Positions 28,131 to 38,368 of a stretch of DNA of 64,000 nucleotides are shown one piece after another. The stretch comes from Aotearoamyces nothofagi (Eukaryota > Ascomycota > Leotiomycetes > Leotiales > Tympanidaceae). The number at the start of each line of letters is the position of its first letter. The first letter of the stretch is position 1. The notes under the pieces are model-generated. The model was not told where the DNA came from, did no database searches, and saw only the letters and a program-made list of their open reading frames with translations. The stretch covers positions 806,001-870,000 of the forward strand of contig JADDTR010000007.1 of assembly GCA_015345905.1 (NCBI GenBank). Direction: 5' to 3'. A program made the position numbers and the translations under genes.

Positions 28131-31100
28131 ATGGCGGTCAGCGTCTCCAATTCCCTGGAGCAGTCCCTCACTTCGCTCGCAGAAACCCTATCCTCCATCG
28201 AGCCTCTGTCAACAAGCCCTGCGAGCTCAACAGGTATCGTTGCCAACAATGTCTCTAATATCTCCGGCGTTGCAACAGCGCTGGCGGGCGACTCGGCTCC
28301 CGGTACCTTACTTGGCCTTTTAGGAAGATTAATACTTTTCTTACTAAAGCTTATACCACGGGTTCTCTATTGGATAATCACCTTCACGACAATGATTTTA
28401 CCATCATGGCTCTTCGTGCTCTTTTCTACAAGCTTGACATTCACTCTGAATGTAACTACATTGTAAGATGCTTTTCTATTTGGGCTATGCTATTTTGCTG
28501 ATACTCCGTCTTGTAGAATGTTAATTCTGGCCATGTTTGCAGCAACTTTGGGCTGGTTTGTTCGGTATCGATACCTGAATATGTATGCTCGACTGCCTCC
28601 CGAGCCGCAGCGCAAGGAACCGCAGGTAGAACTCTTCCCTGATACTCAGGAAGAGGGCACTAAGTCCGGGCTGTCCAACTACCTGGACGAATTTTTAAGT
28701 GCTATAAAAGTTTTCGGGTATCTGGAGAGGCCCGTCTTTCATGAATTGACGCGAACTATGCAGACCCGGAAGCTCATCTCAGGCGAAACATTGAATCTTG
28801 AAGAGGAGAAGGGTTTCTGTCTCGTAGTCGATGGCTTAGTCGAGATATTTGTAAAATCTGCTCGTAAGACACGACGCTCGGACCTAGACAGGTATTATGA
28901 GGAAAGCGAAGGAGACGACTCCTCTAGTGACGGGGAAGGACGCCAGGGTAGCGGGCAACAAGGCTACCAACTCCTCACTGAGGTCAAAAATGGGGCTCCA
29001 ATGTCTTCGCTCTTCTCGATTCTAGCTCTATTCACGGAAGACGTCAAGCTGCGTCATAGTGACGACGACGATCTTGAATTGAGCACTTCAAGTTCAGGTT
29101 TCAACCGCCGGGGATTTCCTTCTGGTGGCCCACAGGGCTATGATGCGGACCCTTCTTTTCCGACCAGCCCCATATACGGAAGCCCACACCTATCTGAAGA
29201 GCCTTTCATCCGCCATGTGCGTTCTCCCTCGCTCGCTGGATCCTCGAGTCTGCCAAAAGTACCACCAATGTCCCTGGATGCCCCTACTCCCATTAGAAGC
29301 CAACGTCCCAAGCCAAGGAGAACAAAAACAAGCTCTGTCCATCCTGATGTCGTCGCAAGGGCAACGGTTGATACCACGATTGCTGTCATTCCAGCTAGCG
29401 CATTCCGTCGCTTGACTAGAGTGTATCCTAAGGCGACGGCACATATTGTGCAAGTCATCTTGACAAGGCTTCAGAGAGTGACGCTTGCAACTGGCCACTC
29501 CTATCTTGGCCTTACTAGCGAGGTACTTCGAACGGAAAAGCACATGAATAAGTATACAACATATGAACTTCCTAACTTCCTTCGTGGAGATGCACTTGAG
29601 CGCCTTAAAGAAAAATTCATGCGCGAGAGGGAACGAATCGGTCCGGAAGAAGGCAGTAAAGGAATCGCTTTGCACAATTCCAATGCTGGCCGTAGGCGTC
29701 GTTCTAGTGCAAGTCTTCGTAAGGAAGCAACGTTGCATGCTCTTTCGAGCAAAATCCCACCGCCATCGTCTGATAGGGATGCTATGGTTGGACAAAGCGG
29801 TGCGAGTCCGAGTCCTGGCGATCTCCTGACTAATATCCAAATGTCTCGCTATGCAGGTCGAAGGACCTCACCCGGTATGACTCCGGGTCCATCTCTTGGT
29901 AACCCTTGGCAAGGTCCAGAAGTTTGGCAACATGATGCACAGAGCCCTCTGGCTCAGAGATCATTCAATCCGTTCTCTAGTCCGACACCCCACCAACAAT
30001 TACATCACCAGGAATCGTTGGATGAGGACAGTATATTTCGGGGCTCTATTCTAGAGTGTATTTTCAAAGCTATAGGCCTCACAAATACCAAAAACGCCTT
30101 ACGCATGTCAGATTCAGTTGAAGCATCTCCGCGCCTTGTTTCATATGATCAACGTCGGCAGAAAGCGGTCTTCACCAACGCATTTGGCTTCATCGACCCG
30201 TATGAAGGCTCGGCTGATGGCGATACGGATTCAGTCACATCTAGTAGCATAAGTGCTACTGGCACCCCAAGTACGCAAGGTTTGACAGCTGAGCTGAAGG
30301 ATGATATGGAAATTGTCTTTTTCCCTAAAGGATCAGTTCTCGTTGAGCAAGGGGAACGAAATCCCGGTCTTTACTACGTAGTTGATGGTTTCCTTGAGGT
30401 TAGCGTTGCTGTTGATGAAAAAAATAGTGCGGCGTCTCTTGGCAAAGTACAGCGGACGACAACCTCTTTTAAACAAGGCGTTGACGAGCACCTCCTGGGC
30501 CCTGTTTCTCGAACAACGACTGGATCATCTCGGGCCTCTGGACCTGGGGTTTCATCTACCAGTGCTGATCCTAAGAAACGCAAACACATTAAGCGTAAGA
30601 TATTGTCACTCATCAAGCCCGGAGGAATTGCCGGATATATTGGGACTATATCATCGTACCGTTCCTTCATAGATGTCGTTGCTAAAACAGATGTCTATGT
30701 TGGCTTCCTTCCAAGGTCCTCCTTGGAGAGAATAGTCGACAAATATCCTGTCGTATTGCTCACTATGGCAAAACGCCTAACAAGTCTTCTCCCTAGACTT
30801 ATTCTCCACATTGACTTTGCTTTAGAATGGGTACAGGTCAATGCTGGCCAGGTCATTTATCACCAAGGAGATGAGAGTGACGCCATCTACATTGTGCTCA
30901 ATGGCCGTCTACGTGCTATGGTAGGCAGTGCTGATACTGAGATAAAGGTAGTCGGCGAATATGGCCAGGGAGAAAGTGTTGGCGAACTCGAAGTCATGAC
31001 TGAGTCCGCCCGACCAGCCACTCTCCATGCTATTCGGGATACTGAGCTTGCAAAGTTTCCCAAGACCCTCTTCAATAGTCTCGCACAAGAACATCCTGGC

Positions 31101-33010
31101 ATAACCATTAAGATCTCAAAGATTATTGCGTCAAGAATGAGAGCTTTGATTGACGACCCGGTTTTTCTACCGGGTCAGGAGAATAAGACAACGGCCGCCA
31201 CTAACAAAAAGGTGTCCTCCACTGTTAACCTACGCACAGTTGCAATAGTACCTGTTACAGCGGGTGTCCCGGTAGTTGAGTTTGGAAGTCGGTTGATGAA
31301 TGCTTTAACTCAAATTGGGGCTACAAATGGAGTGACTTCATTGAACCAGACGGCAATCTTAAACCACTTGGGTAGACATGCATTTAGCCGAATGGGTAAA
31401 TTGAAGCTCTCCCAATACTTGGCTGATCTAGAGGAGAAGTATGGGTTGGTTTTGTACATCGCAGGTACGTAAGCTTCTCCTTCAAGCCCCCCCCAACCAG
31501 TAGAATGATGAGACATTTTTAACCCAGAGGTCTCGATGAAGACTAAAACTTAACAACTCTAATTTTTTCCTGACTACGATATATCCACTTACCATTTTTG
31601 TCGTTTCATGCAATGCCATTACAATTGCTGACCATCATGATCTTAGATACCAACGTCAACTCTCCATGGACTCAAACATGCATAAGCCAAGCAGATTGCA
31701 TTTTGCTTGTTGGGTTAGCTGAAGGGTCACCTGCTATCGGCGAGTACGAACGCTTCATGCTCGGCATGAAAACAACCGCTAGAAAGGAGCTCGTCCTTCT
31801 ACACGCTGACAGATTTTCTCCGCCAGGCTTGACTCGGGCATGGCTTCGAAATCGTGTATGGATTAATGGTGGCCACCATCACGTTCAAATGTCCTTCAGG
31901 ACGAGCTCGGTTCCAGTACATCCTCAGACTCGGCGCTTCGGGACTGCATTGAAGCAACGGGTTCAAGTGCTTCAAGCGGAAATCCAGAAATACACTTCAC
32001 GCAAGGTGCGGCAGACCCCATTATACTCCGCGGATACCCCCTTCAAAGGCGATTTCCACAGGATTGCCAGACGACTGTGCGGGAAATCTATCGGTCTTGT
32101 TCTTGGTGGCGGTGGAGCTCGTGGCATTACCCAAGTTGGTATCATCAGAGCTCTCGAAGAAGCGGGCATTCCGATCGACATAGTTGGAGGAACATCTATT
32201 GGCTCCTTCATTGGAGCTCTATATGCCCGAGATGCCGATGTCGTCCCCATGTATGGCCGTGCAAAGAAATTTGCAGGCCGCATGGCAAGTATGTGGCGCT
32301 TTGCCTTGGACCTCACTTACCCATCAGCTTCATACACTACTGGTCATGAATTCAACCGTGGCATATTCAAGACATTTGGTGATTCGCAAATTGAAGACTT
32401 TTGGCTGGAGTTCTATTGTAATACAACGAACATCAGCAAGAGTAGATCTGAGATCCATACTAGTGGCTATGCATGGCGCTATGTTCGTGCTTCAATGTCA
32501 CTGGCGGGTCTGCTGCCCCCCCTGTGCGACGAGGGTAGCCTCTTACTAGATGGTGGATATGTCGATAACTTGACGGTATCTCACATGAAGTCCCTCGGGG
32601 CAGATGTTATTTTTGCCATTGACGTTGGATCAATTGATGACGACACACCGCAAAGCTTTGGCGATTCATTATCGGGATTTTGGGCTGCCGCCAATCGTTG
32701 GAACCCATTCTCATCATATCCAAATCCGCCAACATTGTCCGAAATACAAGCTAGACTTGCCTACGTTTCTAGCGTCGATGCTCTTGAAAGAGCTAAAGCA
32801 ACACCTGGCTGCCTATATATGCGACCCCCAGTTGATGCCTATGCGACCTTGGACTTTGGCAAGTTTGATGAAATCTATCAAGCGGGATATAAGTATGGGC
32901 AAGAGTTTCTTGCTGATATGCGGGAAAAGGGTATCTTGCCTTTGATGGACGAGACAGAAGAAAAGAAGGCTCTACGGAGGACGATGGCCCCTCGTAGAGC
33001 AAGTATATAG
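28131..33010 (+). CDS. nte1: Lysophospholipase NTE1 (patatin-type phosphatidylcholine B hydrolase)
   Basis: Three exons, 28131-28462, 28517-31464 and 31647-33010, give 1547 residues, as expected for fungal Nte1. The N-terminus has two or three hydrophobic helices ([20 protein letters not shown], and [15 protein letters not shown] after the first junction). Three cyclic-nucleotide-binding-like domains follow, recognisable at [30 protein letters not shown] and [14 protein letters not shown]. The patatin domain has the oxyanion loop GGGGARG, the nucleophile motif GTSIG (Ser near residue 1276) and the catalytic DGG (near 1394). Function (family knowledge): ER-membrane enzyme that deacylates phosphatidylcholine to glycerophosphocholine. 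A ~200-residue Ser/Arg/Pro-rich linker lies between the first and second CNB domains. The second intron is unusually long (182 bp) and holds a snoRNA. Confidence 0.96.
31500..31577 (+). ncRNA. Intronic box C/D snoRNA, predicted 18S rRNA 2'-O-methylation guide
   Basis: Inside the 182-bp nte1 intron (31465-31646). Seen directly: a perfect C box ATGATGA at 31505-31511 and a perfect D box CTGA at 31570-31573. A 4-bp terminal stem, GTAG (31500-31503) with CTAC (31574-31577), closes them. Degenerate inner boxes may be CAGA (D', 31525-31528) and CGATGA (C', 31534-31539). The 14 nt just 5' of the D box, ACTCTAATTTTTTC (31556-31569), are perfectly complementary to GAAAAAATTAGAGT. I know that string as a near-universal segment of eukaryotic 18S rRNA. 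By the D+5 rule the target is an adenosine in the A-run. From memory this fits yeast Am796, guided by snR53. The 78-nt size is typical of the class. Confidence 0.78.
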
Positions 33011-33265: not shown

Positions 33266-33298
33266 GCGGCTCGAACCCCGGAGCATGCCGCGAGCCGC
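33266..33298. promoter_or_regulatory. GC-rich inverted repeat upstream of guanine deaminase gene
   Basis: GCGGCTCG (33266-33273) and CGAGCCGC (33291-33298) form a perfect 8-bp inverted repeat with a 17-nt spacer, about 240 bp before the start codon. CGG/CCG half-sites could bind a Zn2Cys6 factor. It does not fit the UaY purine-regulator consensus (TCGG-N6-CCGA) exactly, so the regulator is unknown. Confidence 0.4.
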
Positions 33299-33536
33299 CG
33301 GTAATACTTACCATTAGCGGCTAAGACTGTTTTACACGATTCAATTGGCCAATGATAAGAGAATATTGGAGATGTCACAAAATGCAAACGAGGAAGGCTC
33401 CCCAAGTCAACAGCACGGGCTGTCGTTGTTGTATTATAAGTTTATTGTATGTGCGTGAACTGGTATAAATACTCAGTTGGTCTATTGGATACAAGAGCTG
33501 GCCAGGAACAACATCGGATTCCAAAGCGGCAGCATC

Positions 33537-36149: not shown

Positions 36150-38368
36150 CTACGTCTTCCGCCTCTTCTTTTTTTGCAAAGTTTCTATCGTATGTTCGGC
36201 GAGCTCTGCCTCATGAGCCTCCTCCAGCAATTGGCCCTCGGCAGCTTCATCAGTCTCTTCATCCTCTCCTTCATCGGCCCTCGAGGGTTCTACCTCACTG
36301 TCACTATCACTCATGCCGTCATCATCAACAAGGTCCATGCTTCCCTCACTGTCAAAACCCTCAAACTCATCATCTTCGTCTTCCTTAACATCATCTTGGT
36401 CAGCCATCGATGTGTCTGCCACCGATTCACCATCATCCCTCTTCCTCTTCTTACCCATCTCTCCAAGTCGGCCCTCTTTACCCTCGATCCCCTTCACTTC
36501 AGCACCCTCAAGGAGAGGCGGTGGCGTGTACCATGGAATCTTGCCCCGCAAGAAGTCATTTAGTACCATCTTCGCAACACCATCCACATCAGGCTCACCA
36601 CCGTGAAGTAGTCTCCCAGCCTTTCTTGCTAGAAGCTCCAAGAACTCGATGTGATCCTTGTAGCCCTTCAGCTGGTAGGTACGCTCAATATGCTGCGGCT
36701 TTGTCTTGGCCAGTACGGCTGGGATATATTGTTCCGGGTTCTCAACATTCTCAACACGGACAACGCCACGAAGAAGAATGTCTTGTGGAGTGTCTGTGGT
36801 ACTTGGGGGAACCACACCGGGACAATCGATCAGATAAATTCGTTTCATGAGTGTGATGTATTGCCACACTTTTGTCTCTCCTGGAATAGGTGCGACTGTG
36901 CACACCTTTTTCTTTCGTAGTGTGTTGATGATTGATGATTTGCCGGTATTGGGATACCCAATAAACCCGACGGAGACCTGTTTTCTATCGGAATGTAGAG
37001 ATGAGAATTGGCGTAGGAGACTGATGAGAGAACCTTTCCCGAAGGAATTAGTTATGGAGGCGTGGAACGCGAGAGTTGGGTAATCTTTTGAGAGGTATCG
37101 TACCCAAGCGGCCTATGGAAAGTTAGTCATTGCATGAGAAATAACTATGCAAGATTGTATGAATCATTACTAAGAAAGCTGCCACAAGCCACCATAAGAG
37201 TGGAAGCAGCCTTCAACTCAAACGAAACATGCCCAAACTCTTTGCGACAGACTCTCCAAGACGGCGAGCTGTCTACTCAACATCAGAGATGAAGAGCGGC
37301 GAGAATGAGGTCGATCTACCAAAGTTGTAACAGACGGCCTTCCATTAGGAAGAGCAAGAAATGCAGAAGGTGCCTTGACTTAACGATGGAATGTAGGGAC
37401 TAAAGGAAATGGAATATAGTAAAAGAGAAAATACATACAGCTACGCCAGTGGGAACTAAATCGCACTTGTTCAGGACAAAGATCAAATGTTTATGGGGCG
37501 CTTCTTCCTTGATGTATTTCTCAACAGTTCGGCATCGCGTACCAAGAGGATCTCGTGCATCTAGAACGTGTATTACCACGTCTGATGAATCGATAACCTT
37601 GTACAACTCATTCCAAATTCGCTTGCTTTGACCTTTGTTGAAGATGGCTTCTCTAGCGCTCGTGACGTAACCATCGTCAATTGCAGCGGCCTCTCCAATC
37701 GCCTCTTCAGGTCCTGAATTACCACTTAGAAGTTTGACTTGCTCAAGACGATCAAGGTAGGTGTCATGACTCTTGATACTGTCGTCAGCTAGGTCCTCAA
37801 GGGAACTGACACCAAGCTTGACTCTTTTTCGTTGTGCTTTTGGTCCAAAGATGTCACCGAAAGGTGATGTCTCGATGGCCATCTTCGCTTGATGTTGCTT
37901 AATACCATTTTTTCCCTCACCGTCTCTGATCAAGCTCATAGGCAGCTTATTAGTTTTCAAGAGTACAGTGTATGGGTCTGCAGCCCTCTCTGCCATAGCC
38001 TCTCGGAAAGAAGTAAGAGCATCTTGCCCAATGACTCGCGAGTTGGTGAACCATTTCCTGTTCGGCTCGATTCGTGCATTTGGGACTTCTCTGCCCTGGA
38101 AAGACGCAGTTTGGGTAACTTTTCCAGCAGCGTTATGTCGCGTCTTTCCATCCTTGAACATGTTTAAGGTCTTGACCTTCTTGGCAGAGCTGGTGCCTAT
38201 AATCAGCCATCATTCTATCTGAAGCTGAAGCTAATCGCTGTTTTTCAGCGTGTGAAGATTTCGAACATACCGATAAAAATTCTCGCCTTTAACCTTGACG
38301 TTGGCCATGCCATCGCCAACTTTACCCTGCCTGACCTTCCTGGTCGCTTCTTTCTTTGCTTGACCCAT
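36150..38368 (-). CDS. nog2: Nucleolar GTP-binding protein 2 (Nog2/Nug2)
   Basis: Three exons, 38368-38271, 38189-37439 and 37112-36150, give 603 residues. Joins rebuild [17 protein letters not shown] and [19 protein letters not shown]. The GTPase is circularly permuted as expected for the YlqF/YawG group: the G4 motif NKCD (LNKCDLVPT) comes first, then G1 [10 protein letters not shown]2-region [12 protein letters not shown] and G3 DCPG. The C-terminus is acidic with a final KKKRRK basic patch. Function (family knowledge): assembly GTPase bound to pre-60S particles in nucleus and nucleolus, released before export factor Nmd3 joins. The start ATG lies 211 bp from the divergent mS26 gene. The 326-bp second intron is much longer than the first (81 bp). 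Confidence 0.95.
37113..37438 (-). ncRNA. Long nog2 intron, candidate host of an H/ACA snoRNA (snR191-like)
   Basis: The interval given is the whole 326-bp intron; the RNA's own ends are uncertain. On the transcribed strand AAGGCTGC (plus 37206-37213) pairs with GCAGCTTT (37175-37182). Inside it, CCAC pairs with GTGG around a 7-nt loop. A possible lower stem TGAGT/ATTCA follows, and directly after it an ACA (plus 37156-37158), the order expected for the 3' hairpin of an H/ACA RNA. I could not place the H box or the pockets with confidence. Family knowledge: in Saccharomyces the NOG2 intron hosts snR191, an H/ACA RNA guiding two pseudouridines in 25S rRNA. Conservation of this host is the main argument. 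Confidence 0.45.

Follow-up and report, generated by a model that had tools for sequence, protein, structure and literature searches.

A putative double-guide box C/D snoRNA encoded within an intron of an nte1-type gene, and its predicted target sites at A619 and A755 of 18S rRNA

Introduction

The question raised by this locus is whether the intron of an nte1-type gene encodes a box C/D snoRNA and, if so, which nucleotides of the 18S rRNA would be its targets. C/D snoRNAs are released from the spliced intron, and methylation is carried out by fibrillarin. According to the D/D'+5 rule, as it is given in PMC2780460, methylation falls on the rRNA nucleotide that, in the duplex with the C/D RNA, lies opposite the fifth base from box D or D'. 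An earlier note, made from the letters of the DNA, had proposed an intronic box C/D snoRNA with one 14-nt guide against a conserved segment of the 18S rRNA, and had assigned this guide to the yeast site Am796. Here the locus was analyzed within the window, which is the whole 64-kb stretch of DNA.

Results

A Pfam search of the window identified an nte1-type gene with cyclic-nucleotide-binding, NTE P-loop-like and patatin domains. Its parts are given below; the open frame extends back to position 28467, which does not imply a mapped start of the gene.

28467..31464, forward strand (+): nte1-type coding sequence before the intron, with cNMP-binding and the first part of NTE_Ploop
31465..31646, forward strand (+): 182-bp intron that hosts the candidate snoRNA, placed by splice sites, frame and the split of NTE_Ploop
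31647..33010, forward strand (+): downstream coding stretch of the nte1-type gene, with the rest of NTE_Ploop and the patatin domain, to the open-frame stop

The borders of the intron read CAG/GTACGT...CTTAG/AT. In the Pfam NTE_Ploop model, the exon before the intron ends at position 77 and the exon after it starts at position 78, and this continuity supports the intron and both of its ends. Splice sites, frame and domain split agree on the 182-bp intron that had been described in the nte1-type gene. The candidate snoRNA begins 35 nt into the intron, and 69 nt separate its end from the 3' splice site. Since 45 of the 55 C/D snoRNAs tabled for N. crassa are intron-encoded (PMC2780460), this location is ordinary in kind. 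The suggested coupling of gene and snoRNA holds as shared transcription and nothing more, and to judge from the same count it is usual for C/D snoRNAs of a filamentous fungus.

Within the intron, the elements of a box C/D snoRNA were identified as follows.

31500..31577, forward strand (+): putative box C/D snoRNA, ~78 nt, with boxes, stem and guide; Rfam Afu_298 aligned over 31501-31575
31500..31503, forward strand (+): 5' arm of the closing stem, GTAG, from the sequence
31505..31511, forward strand (+): box C, ATGATGA, perfect match
31516..31523, forward strand (+): D' guide, TTTTTAAC, 8/8 pairs with 18S 616-623, D'+5 = A619
31525..31528, forward strand (+): box D', CAGA, a single change compared with CTGA
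31536..31542, forward strand (+): box C', ATGAAGA, a single change compared with RTGATGA, aligned to UGAAGA in the Afu_298 consensus
31556..31569, forward strand (+): D guide, ACTCTAATTTTTTC, 14/14 pairs with 18S 751-764, D+5 = A755
31570..31573, forward strand (+): box D, CTGA, perfect match
31574..31577, forward strand (+): 3' arm of the closing stem, CTAC, from the sequence

Both boxes that mark the class near its ends, box C (RUGAUGA) and box D (CUGA), are perfect at 31500-31577, and the terminal stem joining them, GTAG/CTAC, is present and short (4 bp). The antisense elements of C/D snoRNAs span 10-21 bp upstream of box D or D' (PMC2780460); the D guide falls within this range with 14 of 14 pairs, and the D' guide with 8 bp lies below it. 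Boxes C and D, the stem and the 14-nt guide touching box D were all found in the sequence as the earlier note had claimed. When the snoRNA was folded alone, its stability did not exceed that of shuffled sequences (180 of 200 folded at least as well; z 1.28), and the closing stem was absent from this predicted fold. Folding of the whole nte1 intron likewise gave no support (z 0.23). C/D RNAs often fold poorly by themselves.

As a reference for the guides, genome contigs were scanned with a 26-base 18S pattern, which resulted in six records that all (6/6) matched Rfam SSU_rRNA_eukarya. One of them, L006, holds a complete 1800-nt 18S gene and was used for numbering. Its letters fit all 18 ribose-methylated 18S sites of the yeast table in PMC5199042, and its positions are therefore read as yeast numbers. 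The guides were compared with the 18S genes of these records. All six (L001-L006) are bacterial genome records, e.g., Planomonospora parontospora BMQD01000062.1 and Brenneria sp. 4F2, and since eukaryotic 18S rRNA genes were found in them, they seem to hold eukaryotic contamination. The same 18S pattern gave no match in a scan of viral contigs. As the six genes were picked by a pattern that contains the target of the D guide, conservation of this target cannot be demonstrated from them. Independently of the scan, the segment is carried by a primer for cloned yeast rDNA (PMC9176245) and by the Rfam SSU consensus, where some of its letters are lower case, i.e., less conserved.

The D' guide TTTTTAAC had been overlooked in the first reading. 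It forms 8 of 8 pairs with 18S 616-623, and with CAGA as box D' its fifth base faces A619; the target GTTAAAAAG is present in 6/6 of the 18S genes. The duplex is weak, as it is only 8 bp long and AU-rich, and a C stands opposite A615 in all six genes. When the snoRNA interior was shuffled with its single-base composition kept, an equal D' guide for any of the 18 sites was obtained in 168 of 200000 cases. In yeast, A619 is methylated by snR47, with four measurements in the table of PMC5199042 ranging from 85 to 100%. It corresponds to human Am668, which is guided by U36, and plant U36 acts likewise (PMC3511168, PMC5199042), while the Dictyostelium equivalent is guided by CD25 according to PMC8817022. 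The D' guide probably directs 2'-O-methylation of A619, the site shared with U36 and snR47.

For the D guide ACTCTAATTTTTTC, the 18S match given in the earlier note holds on real 18S genes: 14 of 14 bases pair with L006 18S 751-764, which places A755 opposite the fifth base counted from box D. This nucleotide lies four bases from U759, a pseudouridine in yeast. The yeast table in PMC5199042 does not include A755 among its 18 ribose-methylated 18S sites, so modification of A755 is a prediction. Among the 55 C/D snoRNAs in the N. crassa table of PMC2780460, a list that its authors call not exhaustive, no guide is given for 18S A616 or A752, to which A619 and A755 correspond if the 3-base offset of Am793, Am538 and Um575 is applied. 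The planarian Am755 (PMC11649923) and the Dictyostelium Am796 (PMC8817022) are named there in planarian and Dictyostelium numbering, and no equivalence with yeast 755 is drawn from them. The D guide may well direct 2'-O-methylation of A755, with somewhat less confidence than is placed in A619.

The locus was then compared with Rfam. A search with C/D family models, a check named in the earlier note, gave a divided result: Afu_298 (RF01507) was the best model over the intron and aligned end to end at 31501-31575, but its 36.6 bits are below the gathering cut-off of 40. The locus is therefore described as Afu_298-like and is not filed as an Rfam member; at its own cut-off, Rfam misses the snoRNA gene at 31500-31577. 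The E-value was 0.0019 over 501 bases and 0.24 over the 64-kb window, in which Afu_298 was the only C/D family at E up to 1. The second model by bit score was SNORD36 (RF00049) with 20.9 bits, below its cut-off of 30, followed by GlsR10, which scored 18.2 bits, aligned only in part, at the C box, and had a lower E-value than SNORD36, and by snR56 with 16.7 bits.

The Afu_298 consensus is directed at A755 and A619 as well, through duplexes of 15 and 9 bp, respectively, and shares the D' guide core UUUUUAAC and the D guide core CUCUAAUUUUUU with the locus. True homology is argued most strongly by this agreement of both guides and both sites with the family consensus, even though the score is below the cut-off. 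The two differ in length (75 nt matched compared with 93 model positions), in box D' (CAGA here, CUGA in Afu_298) and in box D (CUGA here, aUGA in Afu_298). Beside box D, a C in the window pairs with G751, whereas the Afu_298 consensus has a G. Rfam gives no clan for Afu_298, and a search by name for Afu_298 or RF01507 in the literature collection used found no paper. Like SNORD36/U36 and yeast snR47, the locus targets 18S A619, here by 8 bp at D'+5. Unlike it, U36 and snR47 are both also listed with a large-subunit site (PMC3511168); the other guide here matches 18S at A755. The most likely identity of the locus is that of a diverged homologue of Afu_298 from Aspergillus fumigatus, and it is probably a diverged Afu_298-type, U36/snR47-like double guide.

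Searches for relatives were made in several ways. A C/D pattern scan of viral contigs gave 16 loci, and TTTTTAAC stood between the boxes in none of the 16, which were taken as unrelated. A stricter two-guide pattern had no matches, and the downstream exon used as a protein pattern matched four stretches with no relative among them. In three of the six genomes with 18S contamination, Afu_298 exceeded the cut-off in 0/3 and gave weak matches in 2/3, compared with 9/14 control genomes.

The window holds a further snoRNA, the H/ACA snoRNA snR191 at 37391-37153 (-), with 46.3 bits at a cut-off of 46 (Rfam). It is flanked by coding sequence for NGP1NT (37403-38209, -) and MMR_HSR1 (36153-37112, -), i.e., NOG2, and the intron around it runs from about 37438 to 37113 (-), GTATGT...CATAG, with ends set by eye. 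The best PDB chain for the NOG2 exon at 37403-38209 (-) was 8pv1_Cd (349 bits), followed by 3jct_m (269 bits). The former is from Chaetomium thermophilum and the latter from yeast, an order that would fit a filamentous ascomycete. The association of snR191 with a NOG2 intron is known, and the intron position is retained in 72% of fungi species according to PMC8476143. A match to the HDV-F-prausnitzii ribozyme model at 33266-33334 (+), with 26.9 bits compared with a cut-off of 44 and an E-value of 0.69, is probably due to chance.

Alternative explanations

It is conceivable, though rather unlikely, that the methylating guide is the one at D', for A619, and that the D guide binds 18S 751-764 without leading to a modification there, for example to assist folding at expansion segment 6; this overlaps with the preferred reading of a double guide. 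That A755 is missing from the yeast list is in its favor, as is the occurrence of the segment in the expansion segment 6 fragments of the snR30 study, snR30 itself binding expansion segment 6 (PMC9176245). Against it, the D guide forms the longer of the two duplexes, abuts a perfect box D and is kept in the Afu_298 consensus, all as for a methylation guide.

An improbable alternative is that the locus is a decaying copy of an Afu_298-type snoRNA with a working copy elsewhere in the genome. This would fit the sub-threshold Rfam score and the CAGA box D' with its one adjoining mismatch. However, box C, box D, the stem and the D guide are intact, and the C-G751 pair beside box D is made here where the Afu_298 consensus has a G.

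A chance resemblance in an AT-rich intron is very unlikely. The window contains, on both strands, 16 starts of 12-mers antisense to 18S, three of which come from the D guide itself. Nevertheless, among 30000 dinucleotide shuffles of the intron, not one had both the C..D frame and, next to box D, a 12-mer antisense to 18S; taken singly, any 14-mer antisense to 18S was found in 59, the C..D frame in 180 and a D-adjacent 12-mer in 14. Furthermore, 100 simulated 64-kb windows yielded 114 candidate rows, in which the C box had at most one mismatch, the stem a length of 3 or 4 and the guide one of 9-12. In no row did a perfect C box occur together with a guide longer than 9 nt, and none reached 14, so that no candidate was equal to the real one. 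The real window gave the locus at 31500-31577 alone. These tests were run against a single rRNA gene, the 18S gene of L006. Both guides also agree with Afu_298. Chance was rejected on the shuffles and the simulated windows.

The identification of the target as yeast Am796, served by snR53 in yeast (PMC5199042), was proposed in the earlier note, with nothing further in its favor, and is virtually devoid of probability: by the numbering verified at 18/18 yeast sites, the A of Am796 sits inside ATTAGCATGG (793-802), whereas the guide pairs at 751-764 and its D+5 nucleotide, A755, lies 41 bases upstream, which rules this identity out. Among the 15 snoRNA/18S duplexes with at least 8 contiguous pairs and at most two G-U pairs, none involved ATTAGCATGG. 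In table 1 of PMC2780460, the N. crassa equivalent 18S-Am793 is covered by CD11, which also guides U6-Am47. Both snR53 and CD11, which is intronic in N. crassa, resemble the locus as C/D snoRNAs for an 18S adenosine, but their target is a different segment.

Discussion

The analysis provides strong sequence evidence for a snoRNA gene in the intron. Boxes, stem and 18S pairing support what was first proposed, namely that the nte1-type gene carries a box C/D snoRNA in its intron and that this RNA has a 14-nt guide to 18S. Leaving both methylations aside, 31500-31577 is very probably an intron-encoded double-guide box C/D snoRNA with the two guides described. Boxes, stem, both guide matches and the intron were read directly from the sequence; RNA production, trimming, protein binding and methylation are inferred from them. 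The snoRNA would be trimmed out of the spliced nte1 intron and would associate with fibrillarin and the other standard C/D proteins, after which the D' guide would direct 2'-O-methylation of 18S A619 and the D guide that of A755.

Compared with the first reading, the site was corrected, a second guide was added, and an Afu_298-type RNA was linked to A619 and A755. The position in nte1 and the guide targets may already be in print, and the finding changes no principle. The chances are about even that A755 carries a ribose methylation in this filamentous-fungal group and lacks it in yeast, at expansion segment 6 and guided by the same RNA as the old, widely shared A619 site. With this locus, the shared A619 site would gain a likely guide in an apparently filamentous fungus; the N. 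crassa table in PMC2780460 lists none. It would also link the Rfam family Afu_298 to U36/snR47 function, and it predicts a methylation at A755 that can be tested.
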